Shown here piece by piece: positions 3,327 to 23,132 of a stretch of DNA of 64,000 bases. The notes beneath the pieces were generated by a model. The model did not search any database, was not told the origin of the DNA, and saw nothing but the letters and a program-made list of their open reading frames with translations. Positions within the stretch are counted from its first letter, which is position 1. Each line of letters begins with the position of its first letter. This DNA is from Emcibacter sp. SYSU 3D8 (GTDB lineage Bacteria > Pseudomonadota > Alphaproteobacteria > SMXS01), in contig NZ_JBBYXK010000002.1 in NCBI RefSeq assembly GCF_039655875.1, positions 62,001 to 126,000 on the forward strand, read 5' to 3'. The translations under genes were made by a program, and so were the position numbers.

Positions 3327-5438
3327 ATGGGGGCATGGGTGGACGACGACCAGCAGGACTACCGGTCCCTGTTCGACAACGCCGTCGAAGGCATGTACCG
3401 CACGTCTCCGGACGGACGATACCTTGCCGCGAATGATGCGCTGGCCCGAATTTATGGATATGAAAGCGCCGAGGCGCTGATGTCGGGGCTGACCGACATT
3501 GCCGGGGCGCTTTACGTAAACCCCCATGATCGCGACAGATTCCGCACGGCGCTGGAGGACTCCAGCGCGGTGCACGACTTCGTCGCGCGGGTGTACCGCA
3601 AGGATGGCAGCCAGATCTGGATCAATGAAAACGCCCGATCCGTACTGGCCGAGGATGGCACCCTGAAGTGGTATGAGGGGTTCGTTCAGGACATTACCGA
3701 CCGGATCAAGACCGATGAACGACTGCGCCTCGCGGCCAGTGTTTTCGATACGGCAGCCGAGGCAATCATGGTGTTGAATGACGAATTTTGCGTCACCGCC
3801 GTCAATCCCGCCTATTCCGCGATCACCGGCTTTCCGGCCCGGGATGTGATCGGCGGTCTCCCACCCTTCCTGGAATGGGGCCGGCCGATTCCTGAGCATC
3901 CACGAATTAGCATGGCCATCCTGCGCAAGGTCATCAAGTCCCATGGCAAATGGAGCGGCGAACAGTGGAACCGCAGGAAGAATGGCGAACACTATGCCGA
4001 ACAGCTGTCCGTCGTGCCCATTCCCGGCAGCAACGGCCAGGCTGGACGCTACCTCGTGGTGTTCAGCGACGTCACCCAACGCAAGCATGACGAAGAACGC
4101 ATCCGCTATCAGGCCAGCTACGATCAGCTAACCGGCCTGCCGAACCGCGCCCTGTTCATGGACATGCTGGCCAGGTCGCTCCTTCAGGCCGAGCGCGAGG
4201 GCGAGATGGTGGGCCTGATGTTCGTCGACCTGGACGGCTTCAAGATGGTCAACGACACGATGGGCCACGACATGGGCGACCTGCTGCTGCAGGAAGTGGC
4301 GGCGCGATTGAAGCGGTGCATGCGCTCGTCCGACACGGTTGCGCGATTGGGCGGTGATGAATTCACCGTGCTGATGCCGCAGATGCATGACTTCCACAAT
4401 GCACCGCGGGTCGCCGAGCGCATCACCGAAACATTGCGCGCACCGTTCAACCTTATGGGCAAGGAAGCCTTCATCTCCGCATCGATCGGCATCACGACCT
4501 TCCCCAACGACGCCATCGACGCGGCGACCCTGCTGAAAAACGCCGACGCGGCCATGTACCGTGCCAAGGAACAGGGCAAGCAGCACTTCCAGTTCTTCAC
4601 GTCGGAAATGAATGCCGAGATCGAGGAACGCCTGATCCTGATCAATGGCCTCAATACGGCGCTGGAACGCAACGAATTCGTGCTCCACTACCAGCCGAAG
4701 GTCGATCTGGTGCACGGGCGTCTCACCGGCGCCGAGGCGCTATTGCGTTGGCATCACCCTGAACTGGGCCTGGTGTCGTCGTCCAAGTTCATCCCGATCA
4801 TGGAAGACAGCGGCCTCATCGGCTCGGTCAGCGAATGGGTTATCGAAACCGCCTGCAGACAGCATCGCCAATGGCTGAACGAGGGACTGAACATCAAGGT
4901 TGCCGTCAATTTGTCGGTCCGGCAATTGCGGCAGCCCGGATTCGCCCAGACGGTAGCCGACCTGCTCGATCGCGCTGGCGTCGACCCGGGCGGCCTCGAA
5001 CTGGAAATCACGGAAAGCATGCTGATGAAGGACACCGAAAACGCGGTCCGGACTTTGGGGGAGTTGGCCGATATGGGCGTCAGCCTGGCCATGGACGATT
5101 TCGGGACCGGCTATTCGTCGCTGTCCTACCTGAAGCGATTCCCGCTGCATACCATCAAGATCGACCGCTCGTTCATCAACAACATCGCCTCCGATCCGGA
5201 CGACTACGAAATCATCCGGACGATTCTTTCAATGGGTCAGTCGTTGCGCCGGCGTGTCGTCGCAGAGGGGGTCGAGACGCGGCAACAGCTGGAGATCCTG
5301 CGCCAACTGGGATGCGACGAAATCCAGGGCTTCGTGATCAGCCCCGCGGTTCCGGCCAACGAACTGGCGGCGCTGGTACGCCGCGGCCCCTTGCTCGAGG
5401 CCGACCCTCAGCCCGTTGTTCGAACGGCAATCCACTGA
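3327..5438 (+). CDS. PAS-PAS-GGDEF-EAL cyclic-di-GMP protein
   Basis: 703 residues without membrane segments. Two PAS domains (about 10-130 and 135-255) precede a GGDEF domain with an intact GGDEF at 342-346 and an RxxD inhibitory site (RSSD, 333-336) exactly five residues before it. The EAL domain (440-690) keeps EAL at 470-472, the ITES glutamate, DDFGTG at 590-595, KIDRSF and AEGVET, so both cyclase and phosphodiesterase chemistry look possible. PAS1 has the usual N-x-A-x-x-x-IYGY core. As a soluble protein it probably reads an intracellular signal and adjusts c-di-GMP, hence motility or biofilm. It stands alone between a divergent methyltransferase and a convergent barrel gene. Confidence 0.95.
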   Translation: MGAWVDDDQQDYRSLFDNAVEGMYRTSPDGRYLAANDALARIYGYESAEALMSGLTDIAGALYVNPHDRDRFRTALEDSSAVHDFVARVYRKDGSQIWINENARSVLAEDGTLKWYEGFVQDITDRIKTDERLRLAASVFDTAAEAIMVLNDEFCVTAVNPAYSAITGFPARDVIGGLPPFLEWGRPIPEHPRISMAILRKVIKSHGKWSGEQWNRRKNGEHYAEQLSVVPIPGSNGQAGRYLVVFSDVTQRKHDEERIRYQASYDQLTGLPNRALFMDMLARSLLQAEREGEMVGLMFVDLDGFKMVNDTMGHDMGDLLLQEVAARLKRCMRSSDTVARLGGDEFTVLMPQMHDFHNAPRVAERITETLRAPFNLMGKEAFISASIGITTFPNDAIDAATLLKNADAAMYRAKEQGKQHFQFFTSEMNAEIEERLILINGLNTALERNEFVLHYQPKVDLVHGRLTGAEALLRWHHPELGLVSSSKFIPIMEDSGLIGSVSEWVIETACRQHRQWLNEGLNIKVAVNLSVRQLRQPGFAQTVADLLDRAGVDPGGLELEITESMLMKDTENAVRTLGELADMGVSLAMDDFGTGYSSLSYLKRFPLHTIKIDRSFINNIASDPDDYEIIRTILSMGQSLRRRVVAEGVETRQQLEILRQLGCDEIQGFVISPAVPANELAALVRRGPLLEADPQPVVRTAIH

Positions 5439-18141: not shown

Positions 18142-19464
18142 ATGGGCGATCGGATCTGCCGCAAGGTGGCGTGGCGGCTGCTGCCGCTGTTGGTGGCGTG
18201 CTATTTCCTGTCGTTTCTCGACCGGGTGAACGTCAGCTACGCGTCGCTCACCATGAATGCCGACCTGGGGCTGAGCGCCACCGCCTATGGACTGGGCGCC
18301 GGCATCTTCTTCATCGGCTATCTGTTGTTCGAGGTGCCCAGCAATATCCTGCTGAAACGGTTCGGCCCGCGCGTCTGGATCGCCCGGATCATGATCAGCT
18401 GGGGGATCATCTCGTCCTGCATGGCCCTGGTCCAGGGCGAGACGAGTTTTTATGTGCTGCGCTTCCTGCTGGGCTTTGCCGAGGCGGGCTTCTTTCCCGG
18501 CATCGTCTACTACCTTTCGGTATGGTTCCCCGCAGCATGGCGAGGACGGATCATCGGCTCGTTCCTGGTCGCGCTGCCGCTGTCGAGCATCCTGGGCGCG
18601 CCCTTGTCGACGTTTCTGATGGGCATGGACCATCTGGGCCTGGCGGGCTGGCAATGGCTGTTCATCCTCGAGGGCCTGCCCACGATTTTGATGGGAGCCG
18701 TCGTCCTGCTGGTGCTGCCCAACAAACCCGATGATGCGCGGTGGCTCGCCGACGAGGAAAAGGCCTGGCTCAACGGCACGCTCGAGAGAGAGGACCGGGC
18801 CGCGACCGAAACCTCCCATGCCTCGATCGCCCAGGCACTGACCGTGCCCAAGATCTGGGTCATGGCCTTCATCTATATGGGAATCGTGGTTGGCCTATAC
18901 GGTTTCACCTTCTGGGTGCCACAGATCACCAAATCGCTCGGCGGCCTCAGCACGACCCAGGCGATCCTGATCACCGTGGTGCCGAACCTGCTGGCGGCCG
19001 GTGTGCTGGTGGCCTGGGGACGGCGATCGGACCTGTCAGGCGAACGCATCCGCAATCTGGCCATGCCGGCGCTGGTGGGCGGCACGCTGTTCATGGCGAG
19101 CGGCCAGATGGCCAGCCGGCCGCTGTTGTCCTATGTGCTGTTCTGTGCCGGCTTCCTGGCTGCCTTCGCCGCGTTCCCGGTGTTCTGGACCGTGCCGATG
19201 GCGGTACTGCGCGGCTCGGCCGCGGCAGCCGGCATTGCGCTGATCAATTCGGTGGGCAATCTGGGCGGCTTCCTGGGGCCCTACATGATCGGCGCGGTCA
19301 AGGACCGCACCGGCGACTATGGCATGGGCATCGTCGCGGTGGGCGCTTTCGTCGCCCTGTCCGGCGTGCTGACCCTGCTTCTGGCGCGCCTGTCGCCGGA
19401 CACCGGCCGGGCGCTGCGGCAGGCGGCGCTGAGCGGCGCCGCACCATCGGAGCGGGCAGGTTAG
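18142..19464 (+). CDS. MFS transporter, anion:cation symporter (phthalate/glucarate) type
   Basis: 440 residues with twelve predicted helices. Helix 1 carries the ACS signature YFLSFLDRVNVSYASLTMN; the loop LLKRFGPRVWIAR and the helix 4-5 stretch LRFLLGFAEAGFFPGIVYYLSVWFP are also diagnostic. ACS proteins import organic anions such as phthalate, glucarate or tartrate with protons. No catabolic genes are adjacent, so the substrate cannot be inferred. The end overlaps the convergent nucleotidyltransferase gene by four bases. Confidence 0.92.
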   Translation: MGDRICRKVAWRLLPLLVACYFLSFLDRVNVSYASLTMNADLGLSATAYGLGAGIFFIGYLLFEVPSNILLKRFGPRVWIARIMISWGIISSCMALVQGETSFYVLRFLLGFAEAGFFPGIVYYLSVWFPAAWRGRIIGSFLVALPLSSILGAPLSTFLMGMDHLGLAGWQWLFILEGLPTILMGAVVLLVLPNKPDDARWLADEEKAWLNGTLEREDRAATETSHASIAQALTVPKIWVMAFIYMGIVVGLYGFTFWVPQITKSLGGLSTTQAILITVVPNLLAAGVLVAWGRRSDLSGERIRNLAMPALVGGTLFMASGQMASRPLLSYVLFCAGFLAAFAAFPVFWTVPMAVLRGSAAAAGIALINSVGNLGGFLGPYMIGAVKDRTGDYGMGIVAVGAFVALSGVLTLLLARLSPDTGRALRQAALSGAAPSERAG

Positions 19465-20549
19465 GCGAAACCCAGCCGCCCCTTCACCGCGCCCCACCCC
19501 TTGATCGCCAGATGCCGCGCCAGCAGAAATGGCGGCATGCGCAGCCAGTGCGAGCGAATGAACAGCATCCGCCGGGCCAGCGCCGCGCCCGTGGAAACCC
19601 GGTCGGGATGGCTGGGCAGGAGAGCGGCCGGCACCAGTGTGTCCATGACCGCCAGCGCGAGGGCGGCCGGGCGCGGCGACAGGGTTCGCAGGAACTCCTC
19701 CGGCACCGGCGTACCGAGCAGGCGGCGGGCGAAGTGAAAGGCGTAGAACAGCGGCCGGCCGGCCTGATGCAATCGCGCCCGCTCCGCCAGGCCGTTCCAG
19801 AAGCCGGCATCGGCCGCCGCGAATTCAGCCGCGAGTTCATGCAGGTCGAGCAGGTCGCGCAGACGCTCGGCAAGGTCGCCATCCTGGAACAGGTGCAGCG
19901 CGGCGTGGATCACCATGTCGTCGGGCCGCGGCACCAGCGCGGTGCGTCCCATCACCGCGACCGGCAGGGCATCGCGCAGCAGCGCGCCAGCGTCGGGGGT
20001 GATCCGGCCGGTCAGCGGCAGGATCGTGTGGTGGACATCCATCACCGTGGCGCGATAGCGGTGCTGGAGCGGCGGCAGCTCGTGCATCCATTCGCGGTAA
20101 TAGCGCTGGTCATAGGGGTCCAGCTTCATGCCGGCCCAACCCGCCGCGTCCAGCGCCAGCTCTACCGCCGGCAGCCGCTCGCGCGGCACCAGCACGTCGA
20201 TATCCGACGAGACCCGGCCGCGCGCCAGCTTCAACCCCAGCAGCGCATAGGCCGCGCCCTTCAGGAACAATACGGGTGACCCGGCATCGCGCAGGGCGTG
20301 CAGCACGAGGAACGCCTCGGCCTTCAGGTGTTCGTCGTTGTAGGCGCACAGCCGGCCGGCCGACGCAAACTGGCGCCGCACCGCGGCCGGCAGCGCATCG
20401 GTGACACCGGCGTCGGCTGCCCCTTGCGCCAGCTTGCCCAGCAAAGCGCGCGGTCGGGCGCGCTGCATCAGCCCGGTCCAGTCCGCCCCGGTCAGCGCTG
20501 TCATGGATGCCGGATCGCGCAGGGCCCGCAGCAGCGGATCGGCCGTCAT
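19461..20549 (-). CDS. Nucleotidyltransferase-family protein of the HPr-rel-A cassette
   Basis: 362 residues of the uncharacterised NTP_transf_5 type. FLKGAAYALLG (95-105) and RVSSDIDVLVPRE (112-124) supply the strand-turn and DxD (D116, D118) typical of polymerase-beta-like transferases. The rest is helical, with WMHELPPLQHRY and MDVHHTI blocks. It is the last gene of a four-gene minus-strand operon and overlaps the kinase gene as ATGA. By family it should transfer a nucleotide or phosphoryl group to a peptide or small molecule; the partners suggest the exported protein at the head of the operon. Confidence 0.85.
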   Translation of the reverse strand: MTADPLLRALRDPASMTALTGADWTGLMQRARPRALLGKLAQGAADAGVTDALPAAVRRQFASAGRLCAYNDEHLKAEAFLVLHALRDAGSPVLFLKGAAYALLGLKLARGRVSSDIDVLVPRERLPAVELALDAAGWAGMKLDPYDQRYYREWMHELPPLQHRYRATVMDVHHTILPLTGRITPDAGALLRDALPVAVMGRTALVPRPDDMVIHAALHLFQDGDLAERLRDLLDLHELAAEFAAADAGFWNGLAERARLHQAGRPLFYAFHFARRLLGTPVPEEFLRTLSPRPAALALAVMDTLVPAALLPSHPDRVSTGAALARRMLFIRSHWLRMPPFLLARHLAIKGWGAVKGRLGFA

Positions 20550-21451
20550 GCCACCACCTGCTCCAGCAGGGCGACGGCCGATTCCGTGTCCGGATAGGAC
20601 GCGCCGAGCATGGCGTGTCCGTCCACCAGCCGGCTGATGGCATCGAAGCCAGCATGGCCGAATTCACGGTAATTGACCGAGCAGGCGGTGAGCGCGATGA
20701 ACGCGGCGGCCTTGCCCATGGGATCGAGCGAGGGAGCCTCGGCCGGATCGAAACGCGGAAACACCACGGCGACCGGCGCCGCCGCCTGGGACGCGGCCTC
20801 GACGGCGGCGCGGGCGGGCCTGACATAGCCGATGGTGCCCTTGGGCGTGCCCTCGAAGGCCTGGGATTGCTCGAGCTGCGGCGCGAAATCGGCGACCACG
20901 GCAAGCGAGCTGTTCTTCAGCGAGATCGGGCGCGGATGGGCGGTGATGGCCAAGCTCGACGGGTCCAGCAGCGCGAATTCGTCGGACATGTGCCGCCAGC
21001 CGCGCGCAACCAACGCCGCGCACAACGTGCTCTTGCCCTGGCCCGACTGCCCTGGAAGGATCACCGCGCGGCCGTTCCTCGCCACCACCGCGGCATGCAG
21101 GATGAGGTGCGTCAGGGTGCGAGTCGCCACGCACCAGTTCAGCGCCTGCTCGAACATGATCGGCGCCATGAATTCAGGGAGCGGCGTATAGGGTGGCGGC
21201 GTGTCGATGAAGGCCATGGCCTGGCGGCGCGCGAAACGGCGCAGGCCGCCCGTCCCGGCCACCCGGATGACGAAATCCGGCGCCTCGCCGTCGTCCAGCA
21301 GGTCGAACTCGCCGTAGAGCATGTGCATGGACCGGTGCAGCGCCGCCAGCGGGGTCTGCAGCCGGACGGCGAAGGGCGGCACCGCAATCACCGCGCCCGC
21401 CGCAAGGCGCCGCGACAGGGCCGCCGTATCCATCGCGCCGATGCGTGTCAC
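20546..21451 (-). CDS. HprK-related kinase A (HPr-rel-A system)
   Basis: 301 residues. The C-terminal half resembles HPr kinase/phosphorylase: LHAAVVARNGRAVILPG then the P-loop GQSGQGKS (134-141) and SDEFALLDP (156-164). The N-terminal half is a family-specific domain. HPr(Ser) kinases phosphorylate serine on HPr, but no PTS protein is nearby; this branch is known to travel with PqqD-like proteins. GTG at 21451 overlaps the preceding stop (GTGA) and has GGAG eight bases upstream; an ATG at 21433 is the alternative. It probably phosphorylates a serine or threonine on a peptide presented by the PqqD-like partner. Confidence 0.88.
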   Translation of the reverse strand: MTRIGAMDTAALSRRLAAGAVIAVPPFAVRLQTPLAALHRSMHMLYGEFDLLDDGEAPDFVIRVAGTGGLRRFARRQAMAFIDTPPPYTPLPEFMAPIMFEQALNWCVATRTLTHLILHAAVVARNGRAVILPGQSGQGKSTLCAALVARGWRHMSDEFALLDPSSLAITAHPRPISLKNSSLAVVADFAPQLEQSQAFEGTPKGTIGYVRPARAAVEAASQAAAPVAVVFPRFDPAEAPSLDPMGKAAAFIALTACSVNYREFGHAGFDAISRLVDGHAMLGASYPDTESAVALLEQVVA

Positions 21452-21741
21452 CGCGTTTTCTCCAGCAGCGCGAGCACCTCGAAATTGCGCAGCGCCCGGC
21501 CGATCTGGGCCTCGAGCGCGGCCGAGTGCTCGCGTCCCAGTTCGGCGCAGACCGTCCCGGTCAACGCGTCGGCGGTTTGCGCGGATGTCTCTACGAGCCG
21601 CAGCAGATAAGCGGTGAAATCGTCCAGGTAATGGGTCTCGCCCGTCGCAAGGTTGAAAACGACACAGCCGTCGTCCCATTCGCGCCACAGCAGCGACCCG
21701 GACGGCGCCGCGAGACGGTAGGTTTCGCCGGTGCCATCCAT
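21448..21741 (-). CDS. PqqD-like peptide chaperone of the HPr-rel-A system
   Basis: 97 residues. The pattern LLWREWDDGCVVFNLATGETHYLDDFTAYLLRLV is the PqqD/RRE fold: a beta-strand pair, the THYLD strand and a long helix, then a helix pair ending LRNFEVLALLEKTR. PqqD-like domains bind the leader of a ribosomal peptide and hand it to modifying enzymes. Its stop overlaps the kinase start, and the Tat-exported protein is 19 bases upstream. Which leader it binds is not shown; the twin-arginine leader of that protein is the obvious candidate. Confidence 0.88.
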   Translation of the reverse strand: MDGTGETYRLAAPSGSLLWREWDDGCVVFNLATGETHYLDDFTAYLLRLVETSAQTADALTGTVCAELGREHSAALEAQIGRALRNFEVLALLEKTR

Positions 21742-21760
21742 CGAGCGGCTCTGGCCGCCG

Positions 21761-22282
21761 CTATTTGCAGACCGAGGGCGTGGTGTCGGAAAGGATCGCG
21801 ACGTTGCGGCTGCCCTTGATCGGACCGGCGCAATAGGACGTCCAGCACGACCCGTTGGTGACAATGAGATGGATCATGTCGCCGGTTTCGACCGAATCTC
21901 CGGGGCCGCTCGGATACGGATACCCGCCGCTGGTGCCGCTGAAACCCTTGACGATGGATTCGATGTCGTTCGTGCCCGAGCCCGACGCCTTGTCGGGAAG
22001 GCCGGTCAGGCTGGTGACCAACGCCTGGTTCTGGAGTTGCGTGGCGGTGGGAGAACCCGGACCGGTAAAGCTGCCGAACTTGCTGACCAGCTGGGCCTTT
22101 GTCGGTCGATTCGTGGTGCCGGCGCAACTTGAGATGGCCCAGGCCGTGCCGCTTTGCAGCGAAATGATGACAGGGACTGCCGCCGCGCCGGTCTTGAGCA
22201 GCCGTCGGCGCAGCATGTCGGCGGCGCGGCGCGCTTCCACGGCGCCCTCTCCGCGGGCCTCGTGCGATTCCTGCTCGGACAT
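21761..22282 (-). CDS. Tat-exported small protein, candidate substrate of the HPr-rel-A system
   Basis: 173 residues. A charged N-terminus (1-24) is followed by a twin-arginine motif RRRLLKTG (25-32), a hydrophobic core (AAAVPVIISLQSG) and a signal-peptidase site after TAWA (49). The mature part is rich in Ser, Thr and Gly, has four cysteines (53, 146, 151, 172) and repeats the word CAG (SSCAGT, SYCAGP). The folded core is not one I recognise. ATG at 22282 has GAGAGG eight bases upstream. It is first in an operon with a peptide-binding protein, a kinase and a nucleotidyltransferase, so it is probably modified before export. Confidence 0.8.
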   Translation of the reverse strand: MSEQESHEARGEGAVEARRAADMLRRRLLKTGAAAVPVIISLQSGTAWAISSCAGTTNRPTKAQLVSKFGSFTGPGSPTATQLQNQALVTSLTGLPDKASGSGTNDIESIVKGFSGTSGGYPYPSGPGDSVETGDMIHLIVTNGSCWTSYCAGPIKGSRNVAILSDTTPSVCK

Positions 22283-22349
22283 GACCTTAACCTCTCTGCC
22301 GCCCCCAAGGGCCTGCCGGCACCGCAAGTCGCCTCATGCCGAACACCTC

Positions 22350-22378
22350 ATTTTAGAAGAGCTTAGCCCGCCAATCAA
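22350..22378 (-). promoter_or_regulatory. Sigma70-type promoter of the HPr-rel-A operon
   Basis: Minus strand TTGATT (22373-22378), a 17-base spacer and TAAAAT (22350-22355, 5/6 to consensus). The expected start of transcription is near 22343, giving a leader of about 60 bases before the ATG at 22282. Confidence 0.6.
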
Positions 22379-22400: not shown

Positions 22401-23132
22401 TCAGAGCGGGGCGCCGTGGCGCAGCACCTGCTCGGCTTCCGGCGTATAGCGGCCGTCTTGCGCATGCAGCACGAGCCCCGGCAGCAGCCGCGACGGCGCC
22501 CGGCCGCCGCGGCGTGCCTGGAGGATCACGCGCCGGGCCTCGGCGCCCTGTTTCGGCCACAGCGGCAGCAGCGTGAGGCCGCCGAGCCGCGGCTCGATCA
22601 ACGCCACCGCGCGGGACAGCTCGCCTGCCGGCAGCACCAGGCTGAGCGTCCCCTTGCCGCGCACCCGCGCAACGCAGAACGCCAGCCAGGCGTCGAAATC
22701 CGCGTCGGTGATGCTGTGGGCCGCCGCCCGCGCCGGGTCGGGGCTGCGCTGGCCCCGGTCCGCCGAGCGGTAGGGCGGGTTGCTGATGACATGATCGTAT
22801 TGCCGCGAAAGCACGGCGGACGGCGGCGCCAGCACGTCGCCCTCGATCCAGTCCACGGAGACGCCGTTGGCCCCGGCGCTACGCTGCGCCAGCGCCAGCG
22901 CGCCGGGGTCGCGCTCGATACCGCTCAGTTCGATCCCCGGGATACGGGCAGCGAGGCACAGCCCCGCAGCGCCCGTGCCGCTGCCCACGTCCAGCACGGT
23001 GTGGCCGGAACGGGCCGGAACGGCGGCGGCGAGCAGCACCGGGTCGATGGCCGCCCGGTAGCCGTCCTTCGGCTGGAAAAGCCGGACGCGGCCGCCCAGC
23101 AGGGTGTCGTCGGTCAGCGCCGGCTCATTCAT
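22401..23132 (-). CDS. tRNA1(Val) A37 N6-methyltransferase-like (TrmN6 family)
   Basis: 243 residues. SAM motif VLDVGSGTGAAGLCLA (about 46-61), acidic motif GIERD, and the N6-adenine methyltransferase signature VISNPPYRS (about 114-122) are in order; an LFQPKDGYRAAIDPVLLAA block at the N-terminus is typical of TrmN6, which methylates adenosine next to the anticodon. Its start overlaps the end of the DUF2007 gene by eight bases. Assignment to TrmN6 rather than another NPPY enzyme rests on the N-terminal block. Confidence 0.85.
   Translation of the reverse strand: MNEPALTDDTLLGGRVRLFQPKDGYRAAIDPVLLAAAVPARSGHTVLDVGSGTGAAGLCLAARIPGIELSGIERDPGALALAQRSAGANGVSVDWIEGDVLAPPSAVLSRQYDHVISNPPYRSADRGQRSPDPARAAAHSITDADFDAWLAFCVARVRGKGTLSLVLPAGELSRAVALIEPRLGGLTLLPLWPKQGAEARRVILQARRGGRAPSRLLPGLVLHAQDGRYTPEAEQVLRHGAPL

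Follow-up and report, generated by a model that had tools for sequence, protein, structure and literature searches.

Two described peptide systems, the LPP peptides and the paeninodin-type tailoring of lasso peptides, have as their core a recognition element, an HprK-like kinase and a nucleoside triphosphate (NTP) transferase (PMC13381572). In the LPP system, LppK phosphorylates Ser3 of the core, behind the leader cleavage site, and LPP clusters often lie at capsule loci (PMC13381572); in the lasso system, PsmK and then PsmN give phospho- and hexosyl-serine (PMC9266682). Here we describe a four-gene operon in a window of 64,000 nucleotides from Emcibacter sp. SYSU 3D8 (contig NZ_JBBYXK010000002.1, positions 62,001 to 126,000), which encodes a protein with a twin-arginine translocation (Tat)-like signal, a PqqD-like protein, an HprK-related kinase and an NTP_transf_5 nucleotidyltransferase-like protein. 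We propose with moderate confidence that this cassette modifies and exports one protein, a dedicated cargo that would undergo guided phosphorylation, perhaps followed by glycosylation, before export.

Like the LPP system, the cassette combines a discrete recognition element, an HprK-like kinase and an NTP transferase, with LppN likened to the latter by its description. LPP precursors likewise measure 35–200 residues with a conserved N-terminus and a very variable remainder, and they undergo signal-peptidase-type processing, as is proposed for the cassette, with a target serine just behind the cleavage site, where the cassette cargo has candidate serines (PMC13381572). With the paeninodin/pseudomycoidin-type lasso peptides, the cassette has in common an HprK-like kinase (PadeK, PsmK), a B1-type recognition element and an annotated nucleotidyltransferase, for which PsmN in that system gives hexosyl phosphoserine (PMC9266682). 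On the other hand, the LPP leader motif as published is YxxPxVLxHQxIxFETxxS, whereas the window leader is Tat-like and lacks YxxPxVLxHQ, and among the four operon genes and the two neighbours of the window there is neither the SipW-like peptidase and MsbA-like exporter of LPP (PMC13381572) nor the macrolactam cyclase and B2 leader peptidase of lasso peptides (PMC9266682). The lasso acceptor is a C-terminal serine, while the window protein ends in SVCK (PMC9266682); unlike LPP, which belongs to Bacillota, the cassette occurs in Pseudomonadota and one of its cargo types is predicted to be a folded domain (PMC13381572). Because the cassette appears to work like LPP and phospho-lasso tailoring yet differs in leader motif, SipW-like peptidase, exporter and cyclase, we set it apart as a variant.

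The window kinase and the adjacent PqqD-like partner, whose genes overlap, score over the curated cut-offs of the HPr-rel-A models TIGR04352 (HprK_rel_A, 292 bits against 200) and TIGR04353 (PqqD_rel_X, 62 bits against 35), and the description of the latter names the 'HPr-rel-A system'. The fourth protein matches PF14907 (NTP_transf_5) with 165 bits against a cut-off of 31. The HPr-rel-A models cover the kinase and the PqqD-like protein, but no Pfam or NCBIfam model was found for the Tat-like protein, which gives no match at E ≤ 1 and none at a maximum E of 10, where filters drop most weak matches. The second-best NCBIfam match of the kinase is ScmC of the SynChlorMet cassette (TIGR04249), an HprK-related protein too, but at 34 bits it stays far below the cut-off of 125. 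The SynChlorMet cassette has radical-SAM enzymes.

Linkage of the four genes was followed at loci numbered L; 80 of them stem from a scan with a 14-sequence kinase profile and are the best 80 of 343 relatives, thus the nearest to the query. With iterated profiles, an NTP_transf_5 gene is found at 79 of these 80 loci, the exception (L117) lying at a contig edge, and a PqqD-like gene is detected at 77 (not at L065, L089 or L095). A Tat-like leader protein is encoded at 78 loci, a count obtained by reading open reading frames (ORFs) and, at L080, one frame by eye; an automatic pattern gave 63 of 80, some of them spurious, and missed true ones. In 76 of the 80 loci this protein lies upstream, and in 75 of those 76 its gene ends 245–431 bases before the kinase match. 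Two Sedimenticola genomes have it past the nucleotidyltransferase gene and on the opposite strand, not at the operon start (L053:7102-7701 and L055:7114-7713), and the sequence of L113 ends at a contig edge. Additionally, a Tat-like leader is found upstream at 29 of 30 fetched PqqD-like loci, one of which is the window's own (L154 is cut short, and at L138 about 530 bases separate the end of the leader gene from the PqqD-like match). Order- and class-level searches gave 14 kinase loci, the window included, and 13 of them have the leader as well, although the locus sets overlap in part (L008/L046, L009/L048). The protein on which a first-pass annotation of this DNA had staked its substrate assignment is thus present, as a Tat-like protein, in most of the cassettes covered. 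It does not always start the operon: it lies upstream at 76 of the 80 loci, L053 and L055 carry it elsewhere, and L058 and, among the 14 order- and class-level loci, L022 have none beside the enzymes.

Across genomes, the kinase scores over cut-off in 8 of 10 members of the order, 11 of 385 of the class and 61 of 398 in a phylum panel, and the distribution of the cassette is patchy. The PqqD-like family is over cut-off in 52 of the 398 panel genomes, and a cross-count on the same panel places 49 of these 52 over the kinase cut-off as well, where about 8 would be expected if the two were independent. The recurrence of both families together, which the earlier annotation had named as recognised, is borne out.

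Signal peptides usually drift faster than their cargo. In the window clade (profile A6, 9 proteins), the distant pairs show the reverse, with the signal more conserved than the mature part. Specifically, identity to the window protein is 20/25 in the signal versus 15/125 in the mature part for L047, 17/25 versus 35/127 for L048, 20/25 versus 43/125 for L046 and 25/25 versus 76/129 for L006; close relatives show little difference between the two, e.g., 23/25 versus 107/124 for L003. The invariant residues of the clade concentrate in the signal (R25, R26, G32, P37, V38, I40, L42, Q43, S44, G45, T46, A47 and A49), followed by S51 and C53. Within its own genome, the 41-residue leader region strongly matches only itself (next E about 0.3), and the roughly 9 of 14 genomic TIGR01409 matches that read as clear Tat signals, a small control, are without the PVIISLQSG stretch. 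In an alignment of 111 leaders, from which L062 and L104 were dropped beforehand, one column of the hydrophobic core holds [TS] in 98 and another core column holds a proline in 62. In other lineages, similar leaders precede mature parts that look unrelated by eye, and at two loci the cargo is peptide-sized: the Tat-like leader is followed by only 8 residues (VSTPSSTS) at L085:1667-1984 and by only 20 at L135 (reverse strand), in both cases ahead of the PqqD-like gene. At neither locus do the three frames shown reveal an obvious frame break; both are draft contigs. Taken together, the leader is constant and the cargo replaceable.

These observations bear on whether the first protein is the substrate at all. 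The enzymes could instead have a different target, for example an exopolysaccharide carrier, with the Tat-like protein as a co-expressed envelope partner. In line with this, when the nearest gene of at least 150 residues was taken on each flank of the 80 loci and genes above 600 residues were excluded, 128 flanking genes remained, of which 16 match the exopolysaccharide export protein of the XrtA/PEP-CTERM type and 4 a PEP-CTERM glycosyltransferase; by reading, the export-protein neighbours fall mostly at Massilia-type loci. L022 (G016:C561) goes further, in that its enzymes lie directly behind an exopolysaccharide-export-like gene and there is no Tat-like gene. However, the Tat-like gene recurs at 78 of the best 80 loci, the window's two neighbours, a methyltransferase and a transporter, are neither of these exopolysaccharide proteins, and a mere co-expressed partner would not need a leader that is held while its cargo is replaced. 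We therefore consider this alternative unlikely, and the Tat-like protein is strongly indicated, from its gene linkage and leader, as the cassette substrate.

The signal of the first protein, RRRLLKTGAAAVPVIISLQSGTAWA, is preceded by 24 residues and reads by eye as a Tat pattern, with RRRLL (RR, any residue, hydrophobic residue), a hydrophobic stretch and an AWA end; TatC is encoded in the same genome. The Tat models do not bear this out. The window protein has no match to TIGR01409 or PF10518, nor have 4 of 5 cassette relatives scanned; the best score to these models among the six is 13.3 bits (L047), below the cut-off of 16.7. A TIGR01409 search of the organism's genome at E ≤ 10 finds 14 places, and the window signal is not among them, while only 1 of 78 cassette proteins matches any Tat model at E ≤ 0.01 (TIGR02811, E 0.0013). 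The RRx[FLIVM] pattern occurs in 78 of 78 kept proteins, but this is partly by construction, the loci having been scored for RR plus a hydrophobic stretch. The first-pass annotation took the first protein to be Tat-exported; the twin-arginine pattern is visible by eye but finds no confirmation in the Tat models. We keep the label Tat-like because the pattern is seen by eye but not by model, and infer export by Tat from the motif; cassette leaders may represent a Tat subtype that the standard models miss. If, conversely, the leader were not a working Tat signal, the RiPP-like precursor (RiPP, ribosomally synthesized and post-translationally modified peptide) would stay inside or leave by Sec or another route, and RR would be a recognition feature. 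The low model scores and a leader held tighter than an export signal needs agree with such a role, but the RR pattern just described, the hydrophobic stretch, an AxA or AxG end behind it in many leader proteins, the presence of TatC and cysteines in the mature parts that fit an exported protein make it quite unlikely.

Behind the signal, the cargo carries candidate acceptor serines. An alignment of the Beta/Gammaproteobacterial type (profile A3, 72 of 77 mature domains, with L046, L047, L048, L049 and L085 set aside beforehand as other types) has a mean column identity of 12%, and its only invariant columns are two serines, present in 72 of 72 and both part of a C-xx(x)-S-G-xx-S-G-N-x-S motif directly behind the signal. 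Because the alignment itself could help the serines to line up, we also counted patterns: the loose motif C.{1,5}S.{2,4}S lies near the N-terminus in 70 of 72, versus 21.9 expected when the same 45 residues are shuffled, and the strict motif in 51 of 72, versus 4.3 expected and 0 of 72 in residues 46–90. A full alignment of 78 proteins, with nothing set aside, has Cys in 75, Ser in 74 and Ser in 72 at the same columns. The window protein has Thr57 and Lys62 at the two serine columns of A3, and in its clade Ser51 (mature position +2) is invariant in all 9 and Ser52 mostly kept; this would place the phospho-acceptor site of the window protein at Ser51/Ser52. In the group with GAALA-type signals, a serine at +3 recurs. 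After a C-S-S pattern accounted for 49 of 113, a serine within +1 to +6 is found in 57 of the remaining 64, an approximate figure, as the cleavage guess misplaces L057, L062, L095, L102 and L104, and L025 and L132 are the same protein. The motif is missing in three secreted proteins with the same domain (L161, L162, L165; few at n = 3), whose genomes have no kinase match. A conserved C-terminal Ser/Thr, considered as the target by analogy with lasso peptides and with the YLxxT ends of many Betaproteobacterial cargoes, was rejected as a general target, as C-termini vary widely and the window protein ends in SVCK.

The predicted structure of one mature domain of this type (L098:4079-4615) has a mean predicted local distance difference test score (pLDDT) of 89.4, and its first 20 residues score lowest, at 68, as expected of an exposed tail. 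The best Foldseek match to this model has E 3.8, none of the 80 chains re-aligned reaches Z 2, and a Protein Data Bank (PDB) sequence search with the mature profile gives no match; such absence does not prove a new fold, but the predicted domain possibly has one. The model of the window's first protein, built with 8 relatives, has a mean pLDDT of 49 and is not used. The folded-protein analogue of RiPP modification suggested earlier is thus retained for one cargo type (L098), but not for the window protein nor for the two cargoes of 8 and 20 residues. As a separate observation, the L098-type secreted domain with its GYW...LNA motifs also occurs near the C-terminus of unrelated secreted proteins (L161, L162, L165). 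Profile A3 was tried as a genome-wide substrate finder and proved weak, matching in 12 of 398 genomes versus 61 with the kinase over cut-off; 8 of the 12 matches lie beside a kinase, one is poor and lies elsewhere (G482, E 7e-4, two stops), and three are in genomes without a kinase match (G537, G646, G699).

Divergence of the cargo tracks that of the kinase. Partial rank correlations of distances were computed with 500 Mantel permutations, which take no account of shared descent, in 70 loci (without L053, L055, L085, L065, L089, L095 and L117) and in a set thinned to 17 loci below 50% kinase identity. With recognition element and nucleotidyltransferase allowed for, mature-domain and kinase distances correlate at 0.335 (0/500) in the 70 loci and at 0.273 (8/500) in the 17, a coupling that speaks for the cargo as kinase substrate. 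The mature part is weakly associated with the nucleotidyltransferase (0.077, 87/500; −0.027, 305/500) and with the recognition element (0.023, 180/500; −0.038, 318/500). This result also bears on an export checkpoint in which the enzymes phosphorylate and extend only the leader or N-region and the mature protein leaves unmodified. Such a checkpoint would account for the signal being the most conserved part in distant pairs, and the [TS] column in 98 of 111 leaders could be its acceptor; but the [TS]-L step lies inside the hydrophobic stretch, both invariant serines fall in the mature part if cleavage is as presumed, distances among kinases track those among mature domains, and the LPP phosphate is described on the core (PMC13381572). 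We regard it as improbable.

A profile of the PqqD-like family (A5, 67 of 77 sequences plus the window) has as best PDB matches two lasso recognition elements, TbiB1 (5v1u, E 1e-6) and TfuB1 (6jx3, E 4e-6), followed by designed helical proteins (E 0.016 and up) and by PqqD (3g2b) at 0.9. Lasso kinases require a His-Lys-Asp-Asp set (PMC9266682), and the corresponding residues of the cassette kinase would be H119, K140, D157 and E158, with Glu at the last position; each of these four is present in 81 of 81 aligned sequences. In the nucleotidyltransferase, K97, G98, R112, D116 and D118 are each kept in 80 of 80. HPr kinases can also dephosphorylate. A different chemistry, in which NTP_transf_5 nucleotidylates Ser/Thr directly and the HprK-like protein is a phosphorylase or regulator, would make use of that reverse activity and of the reported failure to exclude direct nucleotidylation by PsmN (PMC9266682), but it is very improbable given that LppK and lasso kinases phosphorylate precursor serines (PMC13381572, PMC9266682).

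Coordinates of the operon and its elements are collected in Table 1. The gene arrangement reported earlier is confirmed from the coordinates: 19 bases separate the first two genes, and overlaps of 4 bases join the PqqD-like and kinase genes (GTGA) and the kinase and NTP_transf_5 genes (ATGA). The P-loop and the DxD motif named earlier are both in place. The promoter with 17-base spacing is recovered as a consensus match only, with 9 of 12 consensus bases against a mean of 0.0 matches in 50 shuffles of the 301-base stretch.

Table 1. Genes and sequence elements of the four-gene cassette in the window
Feature	Position	Strand	Remark
Tat-like signal protein gene	22282-21761	minus	173 aa; proposed cassette substrate
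PqqD-like gene	21741-21448	minus	97 aa; discrete RiPP recognition element (RRE); TIGR04353
HprK-related kinase A gene	21451-20546	minus	301 aa, GTG start; TIGR04352
NTP_transf_5 nucleotidyltransferase-like gene	20549-19461	minus	362 aa; PF14907; proposed to act on phosphoserine
Sigma-70-like promoter match TTGATT-17-TAAAAT	22378-22350	minus	consensus match only
Twin-arginine-type signal, residues 25-49 (RR to AWA)	22136..22210	minus	proposed double role as leader
Ser51 and Ser52, candidate phospho-acceptors	22127..22132	minus	mature +2/+3 if cut after AWA; putative site
Kinase P-loop GQSGQGKS, residues 134-141	21029..21052	minus	
NTP_transf_5 DxD motif, D116-I-D118	20196..20204	minus	

Upstream, on the same strand as the operon, lies a TrmN-like methyltransferase gene (22401-23132), and downstream a convergent major facilitator superfamily (MFS) transporter gene (18142-19464) that shares its last 4 bases with the fourth gene. 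A similar TrmN-like gene is also found upstream in L046. Elsewhere in the same genome, a second cluster (G000:C1:1066740-1072393, L181:6741-12394) contains a pair of NTP_transf_5 genes that score 130 and 67 bits. Reading by eye adds one PqqD-like ORF together with ORFs that resemble glycosyltransferases; the cluster is possibly another recognition-element system.

In the mechanism we favour, whose binding, chemical and export steps and their order we infer, the first gene would yield a precursor with a Tat-like signal that doubles as a RiPP-like leader. The PqqD-like protein, by its B1-type relationship a discrete recognition element of the lasso kind, would recognise this leader, hold it in the cytoplasm and present the cargo, and, like a Tat proofreading chaperone, it may prevent an unfinished precursor from reaching the translocase. 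Judging from homology with LppK and the lasso kinases, the HprK-related kinase would phosphorylate, one or more times, a serine close behind the signal: Ser51/Ser52 in the window protein and, in the Beta/Gammaproteobacterial type, the invariant serines of C-xx-S-G-xx-S. The NTP_transf_5 protein would then add a sugar or a nucleotide to that phosphate, perhaps a sugar by analogy with PsmN, after which the product would be exported by Tat and the leader removed by signal peptidase. The interpretation in the first-pass annotation, in which the PqqD-like protein binds the leader of an exported protein that the kinase and/or nucleotidyltransferase modify, is partly supported overall. Its statement that these families have no established reaction stands in that no paper on an HPr-rel-A reaction was found, but the question is less open than it implied, since these three types of enzyme are already known from the tailoring of LPP and paeninodin-type precursors (PMC13381572, PMC9266682).

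Several observations pull away from the proposed mechanism. Leader distances are not specifically associated with recognition-element distances (0.035, 121/500 in the 70 loci; 0.023, 210/500 in the 17), and the association of the leader is weak with the kinase (0.126, 12/500; 0.2, 59/500) and with the nucleotidyltransferase (0.126, 15/500 in the 70 loci). This fails to support leader reading by the recognition element, although the null test has little power because the leader is short and nearly constant. The Y/WxxP motif that lasso and LPP recognition elements read is absent from the window leader on direct reading, and the window's clade of 9 proteins lacks the invariant-serine motif. The kinase profile matches solved HPr kinases around the P-loop only. 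Deletion of lppN changed nothing detectable in its host (PMC13381572). L022, as noted, has the enzymes without a Tat-like gene, and in L058, from a bin labelled Phycisphaeraceae, a transposase-like ORF (3813-4652) takes the place of the Tat-like protein; a binning error or transfer is possible there. Finally, a literature search over titles and abstract starts, with most subscription journals outside its coverage, returned nothing on HPr-rel-A or on a Tat precursor with these enzymes, and no biochemistry, reaction or substrate.

More tentatively, and with some doubt, we put forward a protein-scale RiPP system spanning Alpha-, Beta- and Gammaproteobacteria. Here the Tat signal would serve as both export signal and RiPP leader, the lasso-type element would act as a Tat quality-control chaperone, and the cargo, at its smallest an 8-residue tail and at its largest a folded domain of 180 residues whose fold is possibly new, would bear a (poly)phosphate-linked sugar on an N-terminal serine.

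Taken together, the HPr-rel-A families, which annotation pipelines already name, would gain a putative substrate family for which no Pfam or NCBIfam model was found, a candidate acceptor serine and a proposed chemistry. If the proposal is true, it joins two maturation logics that are usually kept apart, RiPP leaders and Tat signals, and explains why modification must finish in the cytoplasm before export. It would also point to a class of phospho-glycoproteins that are secreted and, at some loci, encoded next to exopolysaccharide genes, much as LPP clusters lie at capsule loci; in this class the logic of small modified peptides would be carried over to whole secreted proteins.

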